DNA from: Nostoc sp. CENA543 | GTDB lineage: Bacteria > Cyanobacteriota > Cyanobacteriia > Cyanobacteriales > Nostocaceae | Assembly (NCBI RefSeq): GCF_002896875.1 | Contig: NZ_CP023278.1 | Location: forward strand, 2,790,001-2,854,000 | Length of the DNA stretch: 64,000 nucleotides | Reading direction: 5' to 3' | In this document: one piece after another, positions 24,032 to 38,925 of the stretch | Layout of the letters: each line of letters starts with the position of its first letter | Position numbering within the stretch: position 1 is the stretch's first letter | The notes under the pieces: generated by a model | The model's database searches: none | Told to the model about the DNA's origin: nothing | The model's input: only the letters and a program-made list of their open reading frames with translations | Program-made: the position numbers and the translations under genes

Positions 24032-24508
24032 GACTGATACTTCCTTTGACAGTCGCTTCCCTTCATGATAGTGGCTAAAGTCTGGAGAAAATAATGAATG
24101 CGTCGGAACTATTTACGAATGAATAACTTTAACCATTTGCTAGCAATTTCTTAATCTAGCTGGGATAGGTTGAAATTTAGCAATCCGAATAAATACTGAA
24201 TTAAGGTCAATAGCTGGTTGTCTGGCAATTGCCTTAATTTTCTGTGAGGGTTGAGCGATCGCCTTTTATGTAAACATACACCTTTAATTACCTAAAAGCA
24301 TGACACTTACACTTCCAACCCTCTTCACTTCGGATGTTAGAGGTGGTATTTGTGCTGTCGTTAGTAGCCCAAATTCTTCGCTATCCCATGAATTAATGCA
24401 GATATCTCACGTTCATCTACTCATCACGAATTCTGTCAAATCAAGCCCTAGATGAAAAATTAAACGCTGTCGTAAATCTTCCTAAATTTGCAAATTTTAA
24501 TTGCTATT
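24032..24508. other. Intergenic region upstream of the large phosphohydrolase gene
   Basis: 477 bases without a credible gene. It has TTTAACC-, CTTAAT- and TTAATTACC-like words that vaguely recall Pho boxes, but not the regular 8-base spacing needed to call one. Confidence 0.45.
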
Positions 24509-27500
24509 ATGACTAACTCAACAATTCGCTTTTCTCAATTTAACGCGTCTCTCAACCGTAATGCTGAAGGTCAGCTAGTCAGTGATTTATCTACTCCTGA
24601 CAACACCCAAGCCAAGGCTGTGGCGGAAATTATTCAGCGCAATAACCCTGATGTCCTGTTAATTAATGAATTCGACTATGTTGCAGCAAATCCTTTAGAG
24701 CCAGTCCAATTATTCCAACAAAATTATTTAAGTGTCAGTCAAAATGGTGCAACCCCAGTTGAGTATCCCTATGTTTATATTGCACCTTCCAATACAGGAA
24801 TCGCTTCAGGATTTGACTTAGATAATGATGGCTCAGTTGGTGGTGGAAATGATGCTTTTGGCTTTGGCAATTTCCCCGGACAGTTTGGGATGCTGTTGTT
24901 ATCAAAATATCCTATAGACACTGCCAATATCCGCACCTTCCAAAATTTCTTGTGGAAGGATATGCCAGGAAATCTGTTAACTAATGACCCGACGGTAGAT
25001 AATCCTAATACTGCGGTAAACGAAAATCTCAACGGCTTTTATTCACCAGAAGAAATTAATATACTGCGTCTTTCTTCTAAGAGTCATTGGGATGTACCGA
25101 TTCAGGTGAATGGTGAAACAATTCATGTTTTAGTCAGTCATCCTACACCCCCAGTTTTTGATACTACAGAAGACCGCAACGGCAAACGCAACCATGACGA
25201 AATTCGCTTTTGGGCAGATTATATAACTCCAGATCAAGGTGATTATATCTACGATGATGCGGGGAATATAGGCGGTTTAACGGCTGGTTCAAGTTTTGTA
25301 ATTATGGGTGATCAAAATGCTGACCCTTACGATGGGGACAGCTACGATAACGCCGTTCTCCAACTGTTGCAAAACCCCAATATCAATACTAATTTCATTC
25401 CTACTAGTCTCGGCGCACCCCAGCAAGGGGCTTTACAAGGTGGTGCAAACGCCAATCACCAAGGGAATCCGTATTTTGACACGGCTGATTTTGCTGATAC
25501 TACTCCTGGTAACTTGCGTGCAGATTATGTTCTACCCTCTACAGATTTGCAGATTAGCAACTCAGGGGTGTTTTGGCCTGTGAATAGCGACCCAACATTT
25601 GCACCTGTAGGAACTTTCCCTTTCCCTAGTTCCGACCATCGTTTGGTGTATGTAGATGTAGAAGTAGGCGCGACACCAGCAGGTAATACTATTCCTGAAG
25701 CGGAATTTGTAGAACAAGCAACCTTTCCTACAGGTTTTATTCCAGCAGGTGCAGCAGGAACAGTTAATGGTGTACCAACTCAGGTAGGGGGTTTATCTGG
25801 TGTTACTTACGATGCGGTCAATAATGTTTATTATGCAATTTCAGACGATCGCTCGCAAATCGCCCCAGCCCGTTTTTATACGTTTACTAACGATGGCGAG
25901 GTGAAGTTTACCAATGTCACCACCCTTAAAGATATTAATGGTAATACTTTTCCCGCCCTCAGTCTTGACCCTGAAGGAATCGCTTTAACTAAAAATGGGA
26001 CAGTATTTATCTCCTCTGAAGGGGAAGCAAATCCTAATGCTGGTCGTGTGAGTAACCCTTGGATTAAAGAGTTTAGCTTAACTACAGGTCAGGAATTACG
26101 CTCATTATCTGTACCTGTGAAGTTTTTACCAGTCGTCCAAGATACTAACAATGATGGGATTGTCAATGCAGGTGATACGCAGACATCAGGGATAAGAAAT
26201 AACCTAGCTTTTGAAAGTTTGACTATTTCCCCTGACCAAAAAACCTTATATACAGCCACCGAAAACGCCCTATTTCAAGATGGTGCGAGGGCTTCTTTAA
26301 CTGGTGGTAGTCGTTCTCGGATTCTGCAATATAACTTAGTCAGTGGTCAGCCAGAAAAAGAATATCTCTATATTACCGATGCGATCGCAGATGTTCCTAA
26401 CCCCTCCACAGGTGCAGCAGATAACGGTTTAGTAGATTTATTAGCAATTGATAATCGCGGTACTCTTTTGGCTGTAGAACGTTCCTTTGCTCAAGGTGTG
26501 GGTAATACCATCAAAATCTATGAGGTATCTTTGCAAGGGGCGACAGATATCAGCACTATTGACTTTTTAGCTAGTCTCACTGAAGCAGAATTAACAGCCC
26601 TCAGACCCGCTAGCAAGCGTTTAGTATTGAATTTAAACGACCTCGATTTACCGACAGGTACAGATAACATTGAAGGGATTACTTTCGGCCCCAAATTAGC
26701 TGATGGTCGTCAATCAATTGTCTTGGTGAGTGATAACAACTTCAGTACAGCCCAATTTACCCAAATCCTTACCTTAAGTGCAGAGGTGATTCCCACCGTT
26801 ACCCCGACGGTAGAAACTCGCCCCGACTTATTTGATGATGACGATGCTAGTATCCCCGAAGTTGACCAGAACGCGGATGCTGATGACCCAGCAATTTACG
26901 TTAACGCTAGCGACCCCTCAGCCAGCATTGTCTTGACAGTAGCGAAAAATGCAGGTTTGCGGGTTTATGACTTGTCAGGAAATCTCCTGCAAACCTATAA
27001 CCCTGGGGATATCCGCTACAACAACATAGATTTGCAGTATGGGTTTAACTTGGGTGGCGAATCTATTGATATCGCCGTGGCGAGCGATCGCAATAACGAC
27101 AAGCTGGTAATCTTTAAAATTAACGCCAACCCCACCACCCCCGGTCAATATCTGGAAGACATCACCGATAGCAGTATCGGGACTCTCTTCCAAGGCGCGC
27201 CTTTTGCACCACCTTACTCAACATCTTCCCGCAGTGCTTACGGTGTGGCTATGTATCGTAGCCCCATCACTAATGATTATTACGTCTTTGTCAATCGCCG
27301 CCAAACTGGGGATGTTGCCCAATTTAAACTCATCGACCAAGGTAACGGTAAAATTGGCGCGGAAAGGGTGCGGGAGTTCACCATCCCCACCGAGTCAGGA
27401 ATTGACCCCCAAACCGAGGGAATGGTTGCTGACCAAGAAATGGGTTATCTCTACATCGGTCAAGAAAATGTGGGAATTTGGAAATTTGACGCTGAACCCA

Positions 27501-30500
27501 ACGGGCGCAATACCGGTAAACTCATCGATAAAATCAAAGATTTGGGCGGTTCTTACCTCACCGACGATGTGGAAGGCTTGACTATTTACTATGGACAGAA
27601 TGGTCAAGGTTACTTGCTGGTATCTAGTCAAGGTGACAATACCTTTGCAGTCTACAACCGTGGCGGTGATAACGAATATTTAGGTAGGTTCGCTGTCGGA
27701 AATAATGGCTCAATTGACAGCGTACAGGAATCTGACGGTGCAGATGTGGTCAACGTCCCACTGGGGCCAAATTTTCCCTATGGTTTATTCGTCACTCAAG
27801 ACGGTTCCAACGACCCCGCCAGACTGGTAGAAGATGATGGCGAACTGGAAAACGTCAACACCAATTTTAAATTTGTTCCTTGGGAAAATATCGCCCAAGC
27901 CTTTACCAACCCCTTAATTATTGACACCGACAGTTACAATCCGCGTAATCCCCAAGCGATGATTCCACCCAAATTAACACTCAAAGGTTTCGCCGTTCTT
28001 CCTGCTGACAGCTTTGCAGCAGGCCCACCATCTGGTAATTTCATCACGGGTACTACCAACGGTAGACCGATCCCATTTGCTAGCCAACCCATCCAAGGCT
28101 TTAGCGCAGTCCAAGTAGCTGATGATAATTCCTACTGGTTCTTATCCGACAATGGTTTTGGTAGTAAAGCCAATAGTGCAGATTACCTGCTGCGGATTTA
28201 TCGCTTAGACCCCAGTTTCCAGGGTACAGAAAACGGTGACAAATCCGTCAATGTCTTAAGTTTCATTCAACTATCTGACCCAGATCAGAAAATACCCTTC
28301 CAGATTGTCAACGAAAATACTAGCGATCGTCTCCTCACGGGTGCAGATTTCGATATTGAATCCTTTGTAATTGCGGAAGATGGCACACTTTGGATAGGCG
28401 ACGAATTCGGCCCCTATCTGTTACACGTCGATGCTACAGGTAAATTATTAGATGCACCCATCCCCACACCCAACATTACCAATCTCAAGACTCTGACTGG
28501 CGAAGCACCGTTAGTAATTGGACACCGAGGCGCAAGCGGTGAACTCCCAGAACATACCCTGGAATCCTACAAGTTAGCGATTGAACGCGGTGCGGATTTC
28601 ATCGAACCCGACATAGTGACCACCAAAGACGGCGTATTAATCGCCCGTCACGAACCGAATTTAATTAACACTACCAATGTTGCAGACTTACCACAGTTTG
28701 CAGACCGCCGCAAAACAAAAGTTGTTGATGGGGTGGCGGAAGAAGGTTTCTTTGCAGAAGACTTCACCCTCGCGGAAATTAAGACTCTACGCGCCAGAAT
28801 TCAACCGAGTTTCCGTGACCAAAGCTTTAATGATTTGTATGAAATTCCCACACTGGCTGAAATCATCGCTTTGGTAAGACAGGTAGAAGCCGATACAGGT
28901 AAAAAAATCGGCATCTATCCCGAAACCAAACACCCGACTTACTTTTTACAGCAAGGCTACGATATCAGCCAGAATTTAATTGATACTCTCGTAGCTAATG
29001 ATTTTACTGACCCATCCCGCATCTTTATTCAGTCTTTCGAGACAGCCAATCTCAAAGCTTTGAATAATGTCATTATGCCTGCGGCTAAGGTTGATATACC
29101 TTTAGTGCAGTTACTAGACGCATTTGATGTTAATTTAGATGGTTCATTGCAAGAGGTTCGCCCCTACGATTTTGTAGTTAGTGGTGATACTCGCACCTAT
29201 GGAGATTTACGGTCAGCCGCAGGTTTAGCGGAAATTGCTACCTACGCCGATGGGATTGGCCCTTGGAAGCGGATGATTAGATCAGTGCAAGGTGTTGATG
29301 CTAATGGTGATGGTCAAGCTGATGATGTTAATGGGGATGGTTTAGTTAACGACGCAGATAAAACCCTGACTCCACCCACAACTTTAATTCAAGAGGCACA
29401 CGCAGCTGGCTTATTTGTCCATGCTTACACCTTCCGTAATGAAGGCCGTTACTTAGCAGCAGACTACAACAACAACCCCGAAGCTGAGTACAGAGATTTC
29501 ATTCAGCTAGGTGTTGATGGCTACTTCACAGACTTTCCAGGTACAGGCGATCGCGTCCGTGATTTGTTGGCGGGTGATTTTGTGCGATCGCCTGATCACC
29601 CCGATTTCCTCACCGAACCATCTAATCCTAACCTGTCTCGCTCCCGTGGCTTTGAAGGGATGGCTATCAGCTTAGATCAGCAAACCCTATACCCTATGTT
29701 GGAAGGGACGGTGACTGGTGATCCTGCTAATTCCCTACGAATTTATGAATTTGACGTTGCATCTAAGCAGTATCAAGGTTTAGTCGGCTACTACTACTTA
29801 GAAAATCCCAGTCACGCCATTGGGGATATTACTGTTATCAACGAGAATGAGTTTCTAGTCATTGAACGTGATAATGGTCAAGGTGCGACGGCACAATTTA
29901 AGAAGTTATTTAAAGTTGACTTCTCGAAGAAAGACGCAAATGGTTTTGTCAGCAAGGAAGAAATTGGTGACTTACTCAATATCGCCGACCCCAATGATTT
30001 AAACGGCGATGGTAACACCAAATTTACCTTCCCCTTCCAAACCATCGAGTCTGTAGTAGTGCTGGATGAAAAAACCATACTCCTGGCTAACGATAATAAC
30101 TATCCTTTCTCTATCGGTCGTCCTCCAGGGATTGACAATAACGAATTCATCATTCTGGAACTAGACCAACCCCTCAATATTCCTACCCCAATAATTAGTC
30201 TCACTACTACCACACCAAACATTACTGAAGGTAATTCGACACCAGGAGTTTTCCGCATCTCGCGTGTAGGAAATACCAGCAAATCGCTGACAGTGGAATA
30301 CACTGTAGAAGGTACTGCTACCAATGGTAGTGATTACAACAACCTCACAGGGAAAGCCACCATCGCCGCCGGACAAACCTACGTTGATATTGCCATTACC
30401 CCTGTTGATGATGCGTTAGCAGAAGTGACGGAAACCCTAATTCTTAATGTCACTGATGGCAGTAATTATGATTTAGGTGCTAACGCCTCTGCCACCATCA

Positions 30501-30925
30501 ACATCCTTGATAACGATTTCAATAACATCAACGGTAATGGTAAACGTGACCCCATCATTGGCACTGATGCCAATGACCGAATTGTCGGTGGTATTGGTCG
30601 CAAAACCATCACTACAGGCGGAGGTTACGACGAATTAGTTTACACCAGCCTGCGAGAAATGGGTCATACCATCACCGATTTTGAGGTAGGTAAAGACAAG
30701 ATTGTGCTGACACAATTACTAGATAGCATCATCCGTGGTGGTTATCAGGGAACTAATGCGATCGCAGATGGTTATGTACGCTTAGTCCAAGGTAGCACTC
30801 CTAACACCACCTTCGTGCAAGTTGATAACGGCGGACTTCCCGGCCGTGGCGTTCTCAGTCCATTCCTAGTATTGGAAAACGTCACCCCAGCAGCGATGGC
30901 TAATCCTGATAACTTTGTGTTTTAG
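24509..30925 (+). CDS. Giant multidomain extracellular phosphoester hydrolase
   Basis: The start is the ATG at 24509 ([16 protein letters not shown]); the upstream in-frame codons are not credible. Domains in order over 2138 residues: endonuclease/exonuclease/phosphatase (1-390; [26 protein letters not shown]); esterase-like-phytase propeller (about 396-760); beta-propeller phytase (about 770-1130; [19 protein letters not shown]); first part of a second esterase-like propeller (1153-1325); glycerophosphodiester phosphodiesterase (1333-1686; [26 protein letters not shown]); rest of that propeller (1690-1890); Calx-beta (1892-2004); C-terminal segment resembling RTX-secreted proteins. There is no N-terminal signal, so type I export by the C-terminus is likely. 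Together it could release phosphate from nucleotides, phytate-like esters and glycerophosphodiesters. Domain limits are approximate. Confidence 0.85.
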
Positions 30926-31027: not shown

Positions 31028-33016
31028 TCAAAACCCAATTTCAATGGTCAAACTGCGAATTTTGCCGGTGTCGGCTTGGGCTTTGTCTGCTACTTCTAAA
31101 GTCCAGTTACCTTGGGGAATTTTGCCTTTGAATCCTGCTAGTTCGGGGACGTTGATTTCGTCATAGGTTGTTTTGATGTTATCTGCCGCACCACCGAGGC
31201 GATTATGCAGAATTACTGGTGATACTCCCGTTTCTGTGGGGGGAATGAGGGTAACAATTAAATCTCCTATGTAGGTATGCTCAATGTCTACCGTTACTTT
31301 GATAGATTTAATGGGGTTGGTGTTAGCGATCGCTAAACTAAGTGTAGATGTCTGCAAATCTTGAATGGGGACATCCTGCACTGCTGTGAAAATGCCCACT
31401 GGGTCGATTTGGGGCGGGGAAGCTAATTCTACGGCTTTGAGGGCATTGACGCGACCGTAACCGTAAAAAGGGCTGCGTCCGTCAGCATCATAATTACCGC
31501 CACTTTCATCAATGCGATCGCAAGAGCGTTTAATGATATCTTTGACTTCATCCCAGCGTAAATTCGGGTTACGGGAAAGAATTAAAGCCGCTACTCCAGC
31601 TACCCCAGGACAAGCACTAGAAGTACCACCAAAACTATTGGTATAGTTGCCTGCTTGGTCGCCCTGGCTAACAGTGCCATTATTGTAACCAAATCGTCCG
31701 GTGCGATCTGTTGTCCAAATGCCGGGAGTTTGGGAACTGTAGCCGTTATTGCTGGGGAAAGCGCACCAGACGGCTTTACCAAAGTCACTGTAAGCACTTC
31801 TTCTGTTAAAGTCATTACAAGCAGCCACCGCAATTACTTTGGGATAGCTGGCGTAACCGTCGTTATCAACACTCTCATTGCCATTTCCCGCCGCAAATAA
31901 AATTACACAGCCTTTGCCATTACGCCCTTTTGTGAAGGCGTATTCCATTGCTAACCGTGTAGAGTCTGGGAGAGGGACTTTTTGCAGGTGGCCGGGGTCG
32001 GTGGGTTCCCACCAAATCCCATCCGGTGGCCCCCAACTACAGGAAATCACATCTGCACCATTTTGCGCCGCCCAGACGAAAGCCTCAGCTTCATCTACGG
32101 AACCCAAGGCTGATACAAAACGAATTGGCATTAATTTGGCTTTTGGTGCTACACCCGACGCGCCGAAGTTCCCATCCCCACAGGCTACCCCTGCACAGGC
32201 TGTCCCATGATTGTCTGAGTTACCTGGTCTGGGGTTATTGTTTTTGCGTGTTACATCCCTGGGGGCGACAATCTTACCGGAGGAACGAAATTCCTCATGG
32301 TCAATATCTACACCATCATCAATAATGGCGATAGTTGTACCTGCACCTTCACTTAATTTCCAAGCAGCTTCTACATAGGCATGAGCATTAATATTCTTAG
32401 CATTAATGGTGGTTTCCTTGAGATGCCATTGCTGCGGGAAAGCTTGACGTTGACGAAATTCTCTGACTAATTCAGGATGACAAAGTTCTACTGTTTCTTC
32501 ATTGAGTAGTGTTTCAGCGAGGTCAAATATCGCTAAACCCGTATTAGCTGGCGCACTCACGAAATAAGCATTACGGGCATATTCTAGTTGACGTTTAATC
32601 GTCAAATTATAACGTCCTAAAACTGCCTCACAGGTGCTAGCTTCTTCTTCATCATCAAACTTGACAAAGAGGTTTTCCGTGTAGATTACTGGTTGTCGCG
32701 ACTGCGGGTCAATCAATACCCGTCCGGCAAATTGGATTTCTGGTTCTTGATTTAAAATTTCCTTGGCTTGATCACGTAAAGCACCGTCTTGATTTGGTGC
32801 TTTTAATTGCAAAACTTCTACACCTGCTTGCCGAAATCGCGTTACCAAGTCAAACTGATTGAGGATACTACGGGCTTCCGGTGATACAGATGCTACTTCA
32901 AACGGGCGATCGCCTACAAGCACACTGCGGTTTTGAGTACGAACTACAATATGATCCTCACTAATGACCAGTTCATACTGTTCACCATTCTGTCCGCCAT
33001 AGCGAACCTGAACCAT
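31028..33016 (-). CDS. prcA: Calcium-dependent subtilisin-type protease with P-domain
   Basis: 662 residues, the length of the Anabaena calcium-dependent protease PrcA. There is an N-terminal prosegment-like part (1-195), then the S8 kexin-like core: Asp near 233 (AIIDDGVDIDHEEF), His near 270 (DNHGTACAG), oxyanion Asn in FAAGNGN and Ser near 465 (GGTSSACPG). A C-terminal P-domain (about 545-662) includes THxGDL-like HTYIGDLIVTL and ends GNWTLEVADKA...LTIEIGF. No classical signal peptide is seen. An AGGAG site precedes the ATG. PrcA is a Ca2+-activated protease linked to heterocyst differentiation, though reported not to be essential for it. The divergent neighbour at 33275 resembles its prosegment. 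Confidence 0.88.
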   Translation of the reverse strand: MVQVRYGGQNGEQYELVISEDHIVVRTQNRSVLVGDRPFEVASVSPEARSILNQFDLVTRFRQAGVEVLQLKAPNQDGALRDQAKEILNQEPEIQFAGRVLIDPQSRQPVIYTENLFVKFDDEEEASTCEAVLGRYNLTIKRQLEYARNAYFVSAPANTGLAIFDLAETLLNEETVELCHPELVREFRQRQAFPQQWHLKETTINAKNINAHAYVEAAWKLSEGAGTTIAIIDDGVDIDHEEFRSSGKIVAPRDVTRKNNNPRPGNSDNHGTACAGVACGDGNFGASGVAPKAKLMPIRFVSALGSVDEAEAFVWAAQNGADVISCSWGPPDGIWWEPTDPGHLQKVPLPDSTRLAMEYAFTKGRNGKGCVILFAAGNGNESVDNDGYASYPKVIAVAACNDFNRRSAYSDFGKAVWCAFPSNNGYSSQTPGIWTTDRTGRFGYNNGTVSQGDQAGNYTNSFGGTSSACPGVAGVAALILSRNPNLRWDEVKDIIKRSCDRIDESGGNYDADGRSPFYGYGRVNALKAVELASPPQIDPVGIFTAVQDVPIQDLQTSTLSLAIANTNPIKSIKVTVDIEHTYIGDLIVTLIPPTETGVSPVILHNRLGGAADNIKTTYDEINVPELAGFKGKIPQGNWTLEVADKAQADTGKIRSLTIEIGF

Positions 33017-33274
33017 AAATTAATCTCCTGAGATTTAGTTAAATCTAAGCCTCTGGCTAGCGTGTGCATATCTGGAAAGCATCACCCGCAAGCCGCAGCT
33101 TAGAAAGCATTTAGTATTAACCACTAAATACAAACTAGCCCCCGATTTTTCCAGAATATCTGCCCAAAAAGTTACAAAATGTAAGTAAAAAGTAACTTTA
33201 GCCCACTTTCTGCCGTCTATACAGACAGTCCCTATTCCCTGTTCCCTGTTCCCTGTTAGTAGAATTGAAGCAAG

Positions 33275-33811
33275 ATGATCGAATTTTTTCTCCAGGCTTA
33301 TTCTCTACCCCTAATTGCTGAAGTGAGATTTTCATCAGACTACTTTAGTGAATATCCCCAACAAATTTCTGTTGGCAAAGATGCGGTGAGTTTATTTAGC
33401 CAACAGCCTGGATATTATGCTATACACTACAAACAACCAAATACAGCCAATTCCACCGCAATTTTATTGTTGAATGAAGGTAAAATTGCTGTCTTTGCAG
33501 GTGAACCACCACCGACAATTACAGATACAATCAGCCCCGTTTATACCTTACCAGGGGGTTTACTAGCTGTCCCCACAGGTTTAGTCTTTATTCGCTTTCC
33601 AGAAAATATTGTCGTTGAGTCACAACAAGCAGCTATTCAGCAAGCAGGTTATGAAATTGCTCAAATTTTAGCTTACGCGCCTCATGCAGCTTGGTTAAGT
33701 GCTAAATCAGGTAAAATCAGCGATGCCTTACAAGGAATTACTCAATTAAAAGCAATATCAAATATAGAAAATGTCGAACCTCAATTATTAATGGAAAGAA
33801 GACAACGTTAA
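33275..33811 (+). CDS. Stand-alone protein resembling the PrcA prosegment
   Basis: 178 residues, divergent from prcA, starts 258 bases apart. The second half (LVFIRFPENIVVESQQAAIQ, then YEIAQILAYAPHAAWLSA, LKAISNIENVEPQLLMERRQ) aligns by eye with residues about 116-191 of PrcA (LFVKFDDEEEASTCE, KRQLEYARNAYFVSAPAN, TVELCHPELVREFRQRQ). The first half (YYAIHYKQPNT...KIAVFAGEPP) recalls the PrcA start. It lacks any protease domain. I infer an inhibitor or folding helper for PrcA or a paralogue. The alternative is a decayed protease gene whose remainder is lost. Confidence 0.6.
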   Translation: MIEFFLQAYSLPLIAEVRFSSDYFSEYPQQISVGKDAVSLFSQQPGYYAIHYKQPNTANSTAILLLNEGKIAVFAGEPPPTITDTISPVYTLPGGLLAVPTGLVFIRFPENIVVESQQAAIQQAGYEIAQILAYAPHAAWLSAKSGKISDALQGITQLKAISNIENVEPQLLMERRQR

Positions 33812-34220: not shown

Positions 34221-34430
34221 ATGAACAAAGGCTTTACTATGAACGAACTTGGCCAACTCAATAACTTTGCAATTGAACCGAAAGTGTATGTAGATCAAAC
34301 CCCAAGGGTAGGTTTTACTGAGTATGCAGAAAAACTCAATGGACGTTTAGCAATGCTTGGCTTTGTCGCACTCATCGCTGTAGAAGTGATCACAGGACAA
34401 GGCTTGATTGGATGGTTAACAAACCTGTAG
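34221..34430 (+). CDS. High-light-inducible protein (one-helix LHC-like)
   Basis: Start at ATG 34221 ([13 protein letters not shown]), which follows AAGGGA; a second in-frame ATG six codons later is possible. The 69-residue protein carries the chlorophyll-binding helix [20 protein letters not shown], with the ExxNGRxAMxGF motif, then GQGLIGWL. Such single-helix proteins bind chlorophyll and carotenoid at photosystem II assembly sites and dissipate energy. Three HLR1-like units upstream indicate light-stress control. It forms a likely operon with the 79-residue gene downstream, closed by a strong terminator. Confidence 0.9.
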
Positions 34431-34482: not shown

Positions 34483-34722
34483 ATGAGAACTGATTTTGAT
34501 TTTCCCAAAAAAGATTTAATCGGCCCTGTTGTTTTTCGTCCTGAATTTAACGAATTTAAAACTATCAATGCTAACGAAGCTTGGTCATTATTTTTCAGTG
34601 CAGGTCAGGATGATAAAGGATTGGGAGAACAACCAGAATTAGGTAGATTTTTCACTAACCTTTTAATTGCTGTAGGCGTAGCAGGAACTATTTGGGCAAG
34701 TGTCTTTAGCAATTTGGGATAA
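34483..34722 (+). CDS. Small single-helix protein in the high-light operon
   Basis: 79 residues with a good AAGGAAAG ribosome site. The soluble N-terminus (MRTDFDFPKKDLIGPVVF) and middle (NEAWSLFFSAGQDDKGLG) lead to one C-terminal helix (about 58-76, FFTNLLIAVGVAGTIWASVF). It lacks the ExxNxR chlorophyll-binding signature. It follows the high-light-inducible gene by 52 bases and precedes the terminator, so it is probably co-induced by light stress. The family is not recognised; a partner or membrane docking factor for the Hli protein is a guess. Confidence 0.75.
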   Translation: MRTDFDFPKKDLIGPVVFRPEFNEFKTINANEAWSLFFSAGQDDKGLGEQPELGRFFTNLLIAVGVAGTIWASVFSNLG

Positions 34723-36504: not shown

Positions 36505-38925
36505 ATGTCAGAATTGATTCAGGCAATACTGGATAGTGAAGAAAAAAGTGATTTACGTTGCTTTGTGAGCCAATTACGCCAAAAGGAACAGAATTATTTA
36601 CTGCGTAATGACATCTTGAATGAGTATAAAGAATACTGCACTAAATTTGATAAACCAGAGACGTTTTATACTTCTTCTCATTTGGGTAAATTAATTTACT
36701 ACACCCAAGAGATTATTCAAGAAGATTCAAATTTGTGTTTTATTATTCGTGCCAAAATTGCGAGTCAAGAAGTGTATCGACTCACAGCAGACTTAGATGT
36801 AGAAGCGATGACGGCACAGGATTTATTAGATTTGCGCGATCGCTTCGTCAATAAGTTTCATCCCCAAGATGGTGATCTGCTAGAGTTAGACTTTGGCCCT
36901 TTTTACGACTACACTCCAGTCATTCGCGACCCGAAAAATATCGGTAAGGGTGTACAGTTCCTCAACCGCTACCTCTCCAGCAAACTATTTCAAGATGCAA
37001 GACAATGGCTAGAAAGTCTATTTAACTTCCTCCGCCTACATCACTACAACGGTGTCCAACTATTAATCAACGATCGCATTCAATCACAACAACAACTCTC
37101 ACAGCAAGTTAAAAAAGCCATCAACTTTGTCAATGACCGACCCAACGATGAACCCTATGAACGCTTCCGTCTGGAATTGCAAACTATGGGTTTTGAACCA
37201 GGTTGGGGTAACACAGCTTCCCGTGTACGAGACACCCTAAATATTCTCGATGAATTAATCGACTCACCAGACCCCCACACCCTAGAGGCTTTCATTTCTC
37301 GTGTCCCGATGATTTTTAGAATCGTCTTAGTATCGGCACATGGTTGGTTTGGACAAGAAGGGGTTTTAGGTCGTCCTGACACTGGTGGTCAGGTGGTGTA
37401 TGTTCTCGACCAAGCCAAGAATTTAGAAAAGCAACTACAAGAAGATGCTATCCTCGCCGGTTTAGAGGGGTTAAATGTCCAACCCAGAGTCATCATTCTG
37501 ACGCGTCTGATTCCCAACAGCGATGGGACGCTTTGTAACCAACGTCTCGAAAAAGTCCACGGAACAGAAAACGCCTGGATTTTGCGTGTCCCTTTGCGGG
37601 AATTTAACCCCAACATGACACAAAACTGGATTTCCCGATTTGAGTTTTGGCCTTATCTAGAAACCTTCGCCATTGACGCGGAACGGGAACTACTAGCAGA
37701 ATTCCACGGGACACCAGATTTAATTGTGGGTAACTATACCGACGGGAATTTAGTAGCGTTTTTGTTAGCGCGACGGATGAAAGTCACCCAATGTAATATC
37801 GCCCATGCTTTAGAAAAATCCAAATACTTGTTTAGTAACTTGTATTGGCAAGATTTGGAAGATAAATATCATTTCTCTTTGCAATTTACGGCTGATTTAA
37901 TTGCAATGAACGCAGCTAACTTCATCATCAGCAGTACCTATCAAGAAATCGTCGGGACAGCAGATAGCATCGGACAGTACGAATCTTACAAATGTTTCAC
38001 CATGCCTGAGTTATATCATGTGGTGAACGGGATTGAATTATTTAGTCCCAAGTTTAATGTCGTACCCCCAGGGGTGAACGAAAACGCCTATTTTCCCTAT
38101 ACACGCCACGAAGATAGGGTAGAAAGCGATCGCGATCGCCTCGCCGAAATGCTATTTACTTTAGAAGACCCTAGCCAAATCTTCGGCAAACTCGATGACC
38201 CCCACAAGCGTCCGATTTTCTCAATGGCGCGTCTCGACCGCATTAAAAACCTGACTGGTTTAGCCGAATGTTTTGGACGTAGCAAAGAATTACAAGCACA
38301 TTGCAACTTAATTTTAATTGCTGGTAAGTTGCGGGTAGAAGAATCAGACGACAATGAAGAACGGGACGAAATCGTCAAACTTTATCATATTATTGACGAA
38401 TATAATCTGCACGGCAAAATTCGCTGGCTAGGGGTGCGCCTCTCAAAAACTGACTCTGGAGAAGTGTATCGCGTCATTGCAGATCATCAAGGAATCTTCG
38501 TCCAACCAGCATTATTTGAAGCTTTTGGTTTAACAATTCTAGAAGCAATGATTTCTGGACTACCAACTTTTGCGACTCAATTTGGGGGGCCATTAGAAAT
38601 CATTCAAAATCAAGCCAATGGTTTTTACATTAACCCCACCCATGTAGAAGAAACAGCCGAGAAAATTCTCGAATTCGTCATGAAATGTCAAGAGAATCCC
38701 CAATATTGGAATGTAGTTTCTCAAAAAGCCATTGACAGAGTATACAGCACCTACACTTGGAAGATTCACACCACCAAGCTATTATCTTTAGCCAGAATTT
38801 ATGGTTTCTGGAACTTCACATCCAAAGAAAAACGGGAGGATTTGTTGCGCTACCTAGAGGCTTTATTCTATTTAATTTACAAACCCAGAGCGCAACAACT
38901 TTTAGCACAGCATCAATATCGATAA
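36505..38925 (+). CDS. susA: Sucrose synthase
   Basis: 806 residues, the same length as Anabaena SusA. The N-terminal cellular-targeting and EPBD-like regions (1-260) precede a GT-B glycosyltransferase of family GT4. Motifs are VLVSAHGWFGQEGVLGRPDT and GGQVVYVLDQ in the acceptor half, FVQPALFEAFGLTILEAM with the E-x7-E nucleotide-sugar motif, and SMARLDRIKNLTGLAE. It catalyses sucrose + NDP to NDP-glucose + fructose, in Anabaena mainly in the cleavage direction. It links sucrose imported by heterocysts, or stored, to glycogen and polysaccharide pools. AAAG/GAGG sequence lies before the ATG. Confidence 0.95.
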   Translation: MSELIQAILDSEEKSDLRCFVSQLRQKEQNYLLRNDILNEYKEYCTKFDKPETFYTSSHLGKLIYYTQEIIQEDSNLCFIIRAKIASQEVYRLTADLDVEAMTAQDLLDLRDRFVNKFHPQDGDLLELDFGPFYDYTPVIRDPKNIGKGVQFLNRYLSSKLFQDARQWLESLFNFLRLHHYNGVQLLINDRIQSQQQLSQQVKKAINFVNDRPNDEPYERFRLELQTMGFEPGWGNTASRVRDTLNILDELIDSPDPHTLEAFISRVPMIFRIVLVSAHGWFGQEGVLGRPDTGGQVVYVLDQAKNLEKQLQEDAILAGLEGLNVQPRVIILTRLIPNSDGTLCNQRLEKVHGTENAWILRVPLREFNPNMTQNWISRFEFWPYLETFAIDAERELLAEFHGTPDLIVGNYTDGNLVAFLLARRMKVTQCNIAHALEKSKYLFSNLYWQDLEDKYHFSLQFTADLIAMNAANFIISSTYQEIVGTADSIGQYESYKCFTMPELYHVVNGIELFSPKFNVVPPGVNENAYFPYTRHEDRVESDRDRLAEMLFTLEDPSQIFGKLDDPHKRPIFSMARLDRIKNLTGLAECFGRSKELQAHCNLILIAGKLRVEESDDNEERDEIVKLYHIIDEYNLHGKIRWLGVRLSKTDSGEVYRVIADHQGIFVQPALFEAFGLTILEAMISGLPTFATQFGGPLEIIQNQANGFYINPTHVEETAEKILEFVMKCQENPQYWNVVSQKAIDRVYSTYTWKIHTTKLLSLARIYGFWNFTSKEKREDLLRYLEALFYLIYKPRAQQLLAQHQYR

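Follow-up and report, generated by a model that had tools for sequence, protein, structure and literature searches.

A putative stand-alone propeptide-like protein dedicated to the calcium-dependent protease PrcA, encoded divergently from prcA in Nostoc sp. CENA543

Stand-alone prosegment-like regulators of subtilases exist in other organisms, as an earlier note on the DNA studied here had pointed out; SUB1-ProM (PMC6993865) and ORF2 (PMC5638518) are described examples. SUB1-ProM, a secretory protein of Plasmodium, is reported to be a stand-alone propeptide-like protein that selectively inhibits SUB1, the subtilase encoded beside it, and to be closest in structure to the propeptide that SUB1 itself keeps (PMC6993865). 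SUB1 is calcium-dependent, according to the title of a further paper (PMC4024747). In propeptide complexes as described with SUB1-ProM, acidic residues cap long helices in the catalytic domain, and the C-terminal tail occupies the groove of the active site (PMC6993865). ORF2 of Aeromonas sobria is encoded downstream of the gene for the kexin-like protease ASP, in one operon, and ASP is described, in the title of a 2015 paper, as having no propeptide of its own. ORF2 is reported to be required for ASP maturation and to inhibit ASP with an IC50 of 84 nM, and its C-terminal lysine seems to touch an ASP catalytic residue (PMC5638518). The stand-alone inhibitors of MEROPS family I9, which are small propeptide-fold proteins that inhibit subtilases, are described as including yeast peptidase B inhibitor, Pleurotus peptidase A inhibitor 1 and Arabidopsis propeptide-like inhibitor 1 (PMC6993865), and free propeptides are reported to be capable of selectivity for their own protease (PMC10580911).

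We analysed a window of 64,000 nucleotides from Nostoc sp. CENA543 (contig NZ_CP023278.1, positions 2,790,001 to 2,854,000 of the forward strand), in which a 178-aa open reading frame (hereafter the ORF) and prcA are divergent neighbours. The calcium-dependent protease of Anabaena was reportedly cloned by Maldener and others in 1991, and the folding of PrcA is said, in a 2001 paper, to be assisted by its propeptide. The features concerned are as follows, in window coordinates.

31028..33016, minus strand: prcA, with prosegment, S8 catalytic domain and P-domain, 662 aa; calcium-dependent protease by homology
32447..32680, minus strand: PrcA residues 113–190, the ORF-like portion of the prosegment; from profile–profile alignment
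33017..33274, no strand: region between the divergent prcA and ORF, 258 bp; from the coordinates of both genes
33275..33811, plus strand: the ORF, a stand-alone prosegment-like protein of 178 aa; ATG to TAA, frame intact
33275..33574, plus strand: N-terminal, mostly beta part, ORF residues 1–100; conserved in the family, without a PrcA match
33575..33808, plus strand: C-terminal domain with predicted propeptide fold, ORF residues 101–178; from hhalign, AlphaFold2 and VIA-align
33806..33808, plus strand: C-terminal Arg178 of the ORF, aligned to PrcA Arg190; an arginine or lysine stands here in 44 of 45 members of the family, the window ORF counted

The ORF is a separate gene product with no protease attached: it ends at its own stop codon (33809–33811), and the relatives translated from 44 related loci all have a stop of their own. 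Searches of its own genome found one copy of the ORF family, beside prcA, and 11 S8 matches; plasmids and viral contigs, both searched, contained no relatives. The window protein matched no family in Pfam or NCBIfam. Just one family, the Fervidolysin N-terminal prodomain PF22148, was hit by several members (4 of 38, best E value 0.069, non-significant), and the window protein gave no match to it up to an E value of 1; PF22148 domains are parts of proteases. A promoter scan of the intergenic stretch returned 2 sites against 2.4 expected, which is not above chance.

The C-terminal half of the ORF is homologous to the last part of the PrcA prosegment. The earlier note, aligning by eye, had let it follow PrcA residues of about 116–191 and had likened it to the prosegment without the protease; the positions were right to a few residues and the likeness is significant. 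Two-sequence BLASTP paired ORF residues 104–178 with PrcA 116–190 (27% identity, E value 0.002), and profile–profile comparison of 26 ORFs with 29 PrcA prosegments paired ORF 101–178 with PrcA 113–190 over 78 gapless columns (probability 91%, E value 1.1e-6), rising to a probability of 95% and an E value of 2.7e-8 when the C-terminal half was set against the corresponding PrcA part alone. In a control on the match columns, the real alignment scored 45.0, the best of 300 column shuffles 24.2 and the reversed profiles 11.2 and 13.9. An HMM built on that portion of the PrcA prosegment recovered the ORF among 493 open frames (E value 2.6e-4). Conversely, the C-terminal ORF profile was run against 99 open frames of at least 150 aa (drawn from the window, the PrcA locus and ten further subtilase loci, with the ORF itself excluded), and its top two matches, both within the prosegment, were PrcA and a paralogue, with weak single-sequence E values of 0.0016 and 0.0036. 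With hmmsearch the ORF profile reached only E values of 0.2 for PrcA and 0.063 for the paralogue, and in the own-genome search it did not find PrcA at E ≤ 10; the link requires profile against profile, or a PrcA profile. The paralogue (L079:3899-6055, equivalent to G000:C1:5275398-5277554) is a 719-aa protein with S8 and P-domain, whose prosegment is weakly ORF-like.

Shuffles, reversal and the ranking among the 99 open frames lead us to reject a chance similarity between the ORF and PrcA. The related idea, that an unrelated ferredoxin-like protein happens to adjoin prcA, could draw on the RRM domains in the fold search (see below) and on a single-sequence BLAST E value of only 0.002, but we hold it to be very improbable given profile E values of 1e-6 to 3e-8 with a shuffle control, the first rank of PrcA among the open frames and the co-occurrence of the two genes described below. 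The similarity stops at the middle of the protein. We rejected a full-length copy of the PrcA prosegment as the origin of the entire ORF, because the N-terminal halves do not match (probability 0.2–0.3%); the first ~100 residues of the ORF are kept across its family and have no PrcA match.

Structure prediction gives the ORF a C-terminal domain with a subtilase-propeptide fold. In the AlphaFold2 model (38 sequences; pLDDT 86, pTM 0.80; mean pLDDT lower, 60–83, in the other four models), the predicted propeptide fold spans residues 97–173, and pLDDT is 93–98 in blocks of residues 101–170 and 64 in residues 171–178. VIA-align of this model placed subtilase prodomains in nine of the ten best chains, with one RRM among the ten; the prodomain Z scores of 8.0–8.9 (8.9 for the PC1/3 prodomain, 8.4 for the Tk-subtilisin propeptide and 8.0 for the BPN′ prosegment) lie just above the value of 8 below which, as the tool warns, a match may be merely a common arrangement. 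Foldseek alone returned nothing at E ≤ 0.001 for the ORF model, and its best rows by E value were RRM proteins, because the ferredoxin-like fold is common; the prodomain 9fid appeared there with a probability of 1.00 and a target TM of 0.73. No prodomain was found among PDB sequences with the ORF-family profile A3. The PrcA model is of low confidence (mean pLDDT 45) and repeats the six elements of the ORF model with a shift of about 12 residues towards the C terminus, in agreement with the offset that the sequence alignment demands. We also considered the ORF as an RNA-binding protein, given that RRM domains have this fold and come first in the Foldseek list by E value; prodomains outrank RRMs in the realignment, although the fold alone is not decisive.

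The divergent pair is conserved in other genomes; of the two outcomes that the earlier note had named as speaking against its idea, a lack of profile similarity and a lack of conservation of the pair, neither was obtained. Among 59 relatives, PrcA was found in ten genomes and the ORF in the same ten; the corresponding numbers were 25 and 23 in 388 genomes of the order, and 10 and 9 in 386 genomes of the phylum, all ORF genomes lying within the PrcA genomes. The three samples overlap and share genomes; pooled and counted by hand, they hold 31 distinct PrcA genomes, 29 of which have the ORF, and no genome in the samples of 59, 388 and 386 has the ORF without PrcA. The cut-offs were E ≤ 1e-100 for PrcA and 1e-3 for the ORF, with up to 3 (PrcA) and 8–9 (ORF) candidates scored per genome in the order and phylum samples; the ORF was searched for with profile A3 in the phylum sample and with one protein sequence in the other two. 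All 29 genomes with both have them as divergent neighbours, with 152–802 bp between the matches. PrcA stands without a detected ORF in G268, where prcA has an intact frame in a different context, and in G310, a 76% complete genome in which PrcA (57% identity) lies beside apparent ATP synthase genes.

A second collection of 46 named loci, which repeats some of these genomes, gave the same arrangement throughout. PrcA is divergent within the locus in 43 (232–817 bp away); in the remaining three it shares the contig with the ORF and is again divergent, at distances of 5.0, 7.7 and 8.2 kb. None of the 46 loci has the two genes unlinked: L118 and L122, with inserts of 7.7 and 5.0 kb, also keep the pair divergent on one contig. 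In one of the 43 (L131, Nostoc NMS4), the ORF match covers the last 21 residues only and the prcA frame is intact. The outer neighbours vary: the loci with enough sequence on the respective side sort into 14 groups on the ORF side (40 loci) and 17 on the PrcA side (39 loci), and the largest groups comprise 22 and 19 Nostoc loci, respectively. The two genes share a contig in every locus examined, so that their inheritance as one block accounts for some of the co-occurrence; the variability of the outer neighbours and the existence of three inserts argue for selection that maintains the linkage. Two of these inserts separate prcA from the ORF in Nostoc NMS7 (5.0 kb; L160, G407) and Nostoc JL33 (7.7 kb; L159, G406). 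By eye, the JL33 insert contains an IS607-like resolvase/TnpB pair. In the MAG Synechococcales C42_A2020_086, the 8.2 kb that separate the divergent prcA and ORF include a CRISPR array with a 36-bp repeat, of which 51 copies were counted in the part of the contig analysed (L154:7154-11001, on a contig shared with L125).

The pair also occurs at some distance from Nostoc. In G630 and G636, it has surroundings of ~70% G+C, with identities of 39–42% for the ORF and 65–67% for PrcA. A Pyrinomonadaceae MAG (L126, Acidobacteriota) has a divergent pair on a 214-kb contig (ORF 47%, PrcA 68% identity), which may reflect transfer or misbinning. Trees of the ORF and PrcA (24 rows each) have the main Nostoc groups in common and differ in places; the acidobacterial row has a long branch in both, and its placement is unsure.

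The ORF is under purifying selection. Its dN/dS ratios are 0.14–0.34 in seven pairs (PrcA, 0.07–0.13), and in six of the seven the C-terminal half has a lower ratio than the N-terminal one. Prosegment homology and adjacency to prcA are what a relic of a duplicated prcA 5′ end would also leave behind, but a functionless relic is disfavoured by these ratios and by open frames of at least 165 aa in 44 of 46 loci (the exceptions being L128, with a run of N, and the stub in L131), and we give it hardly any weight. Within the family, both glutamates of the motif VExVE(P/L)Q (V or I) are present in all 45 members. The ORF ends where the PrcA prosegment ends, at a conserved basic residue: the position facing PrcA R190 is arginine in 41 of 45 members, lysine in three and altered in one with a changed tail (L121), a count that omits L128 and L131. 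The protein stops exactly at this residue in 15 of the 45, three residues later in 21 and many more later in two; with extra residues in part of the family, the end of the ORF is not always product-like.

PrcA itself may offer a site into which such a tail could fit. The solved structures nearest to it by sequence are kexin (E value 1e-39), mirolase, Aeromonas ASP and furin, the ASP matches being 3hjr (E value 7e-29) and 3wqb chain A (2.8e-28). Arginine 190 does not vary among 23 PrcA rows, and the kexin match begins at PrcA residue 192, so that autoprocessing near R190 is likely. D332, also invariant in the 23 rows, aligns with the aspartate of the kexin motif SWGPAD, which we take to line S1 and to select a basic P1 residue in kexin and furin; a D332 that serves as S1 residue for basic P1 would fit the conserved C-terminal arginine of the ORF.

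We therefore propose, with somewhat better than even confidence, that the ORF encodes a free-standing relative of subtilase propeptides whose dedicated partner is PrcA, on which it would act in trans as a product-like inhibitor. The protein would dock onto the catalytic domain of PrcA in the manner of the protease's own prosegment, with its C-terminal basic residue in the S1 pocket much as the end of a cleaved prosegment would be, and would thereby hold back PrcA molecules whose own prosegment is gone; a weaker role as a folding helper may accompany inhibition. Against this, PrcA already carries a prosegment (29 of 29 aligned rows). A putative external chaperone that helps PrcA to fold or mature in trans, with inhibition secondary, ranks second and is in our estimate unlikely. 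It gains from the Aeromonas system: ASP is homologous to PrcA over the catalytic and P-domains (3wqb_A, E value 2.8e-28), its maturation is reported to require ORF2 (PMC5638518), and ORF2 (3wqb_B) is among the VIA-align matches of the ORF model, with the longest alignment of the 50 matches listed (92 residues over ORF 29–178, r.m.s.d. 2.6), but its Z score of 6.6 is tied with many RRM rows. The prosegment in every PrcA row also speaks against such a chaperone, and the intact prcA frames without an intact ORF in G268 and Nostoc NMS4 argue against an obligatory one. Taken with PrcA's own prosegment, the one-way dependence in the samples, with the ORF never found without PrcA and PrcA sometimes without the ORF, favours the inhibitor over an obligatory chaperone.

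The ORF shares with SUB1-ProM its stand-alone, propeptide-like nature, its gene position beside a subtilase and a partner that keeps its own propeptide (PMC6993865), whereas SUB1-ProM is eukaryotic, secretory and was measured to inhibit; the two are likened by description, not sequence. The I9 examples are similarly eukaryotic and likened by description, not sequence. ORF2 is bacterial like the ORF and has a basic C-terminal residue that seems to reach the active site (PMC5638518); its fold may be comparable, and its gene adjoins that of a kexin-like protease homologous to PrcA. The two differ in that they have no sequence match, that PrcA retains the prosegment that ASP is described as lacking, and that the ORF is divergent from prcA (29 of 29 genomes, 46 of 46 loci) rather than downstream in an operon.

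Both proteins may be found outside the cell in a related strain. The exoproteome reported for Anabaena PCC 7120 includes All1380, recorded as ‘no similarity’, in nitrate and ammonium media and Alr1381, a calcium-dependent protease, in nitrate medium, and all1380 and alr1381 are noted there as contiguous, divergent genes (PMC4390845); Alr1381 is named prcA elsewhere (PMC3610870). From its gene position, All1380 is probably the counterpart of the ORF; cell lysis may explain the cytoplasmic proteins in that exoproteome. If All1380 is the ORF protein, the detection of both (PMC4390845) would also suit a different job, in which a propeptide-derived fold binds PrcA or a PrcA substrate as an adaptor, localization factor or activator, and the extra, family-conserved N-terminal half of ~100 residues without a PrcA match points the same way. 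We rate this as quite unlikely: we found no feature that indicates a third partner, and the VExVE(P/L)Q motif and the basic end sit where, by analogy, propeptides meet the protease.

The ORF is thus probably a dedicated, if putative, regulator of PrcA. Such a regulator had been expected to be new. We found no mention of one for PrcA in the open-access papers searched; its kind is already known elsewhere. What is new relative to the ORF2 system is that the bacterial partner protease retains its own prosegment and that the window protein falls outside every Pfam model. The finding stands, and more strongly than a reader of the sequence could know. Beyond the inhibitor proposal we offer, tentatively and at slightly less than even confidence, a wider picture in which PrcA is under two propeptides: its own, which would act in cis on folding, and a second, expressed from a separate gene and extended by an N-terminal domain, which would clamp the mature protease in trans. 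The divergent pair would be an old cyanobacterial module that rearrangements and inserts have not broken up and that at least one other phylum has acquired as a whole. If true, PrcA would be a bacterial example of a protease served by one propeptide in cis and another in trans, and a function would be assigned to the conserved protein recorded as All1380. A dedicated protein partner makes the control of PrcA directly testable in laboratory strains.

Adjoining prcA in the window is a 2,145-aa protein (24488–30925, plus strand) with endonuclease/exonuclease/phosphatase, phytase-like, phytase, GDPD and Calx-beta domains. Beyond the ORF lie two small open reading frames (34221–34430 and 34483–34722, both plus strand); the domain search gave no match for the second, and the first matched the chlorophyll a-b binding family (E value 2.8e-5), a match that is also given by high-light-inducible proteins. 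Sucrose synthase is encoded at 36505–38925 on the plus strand.
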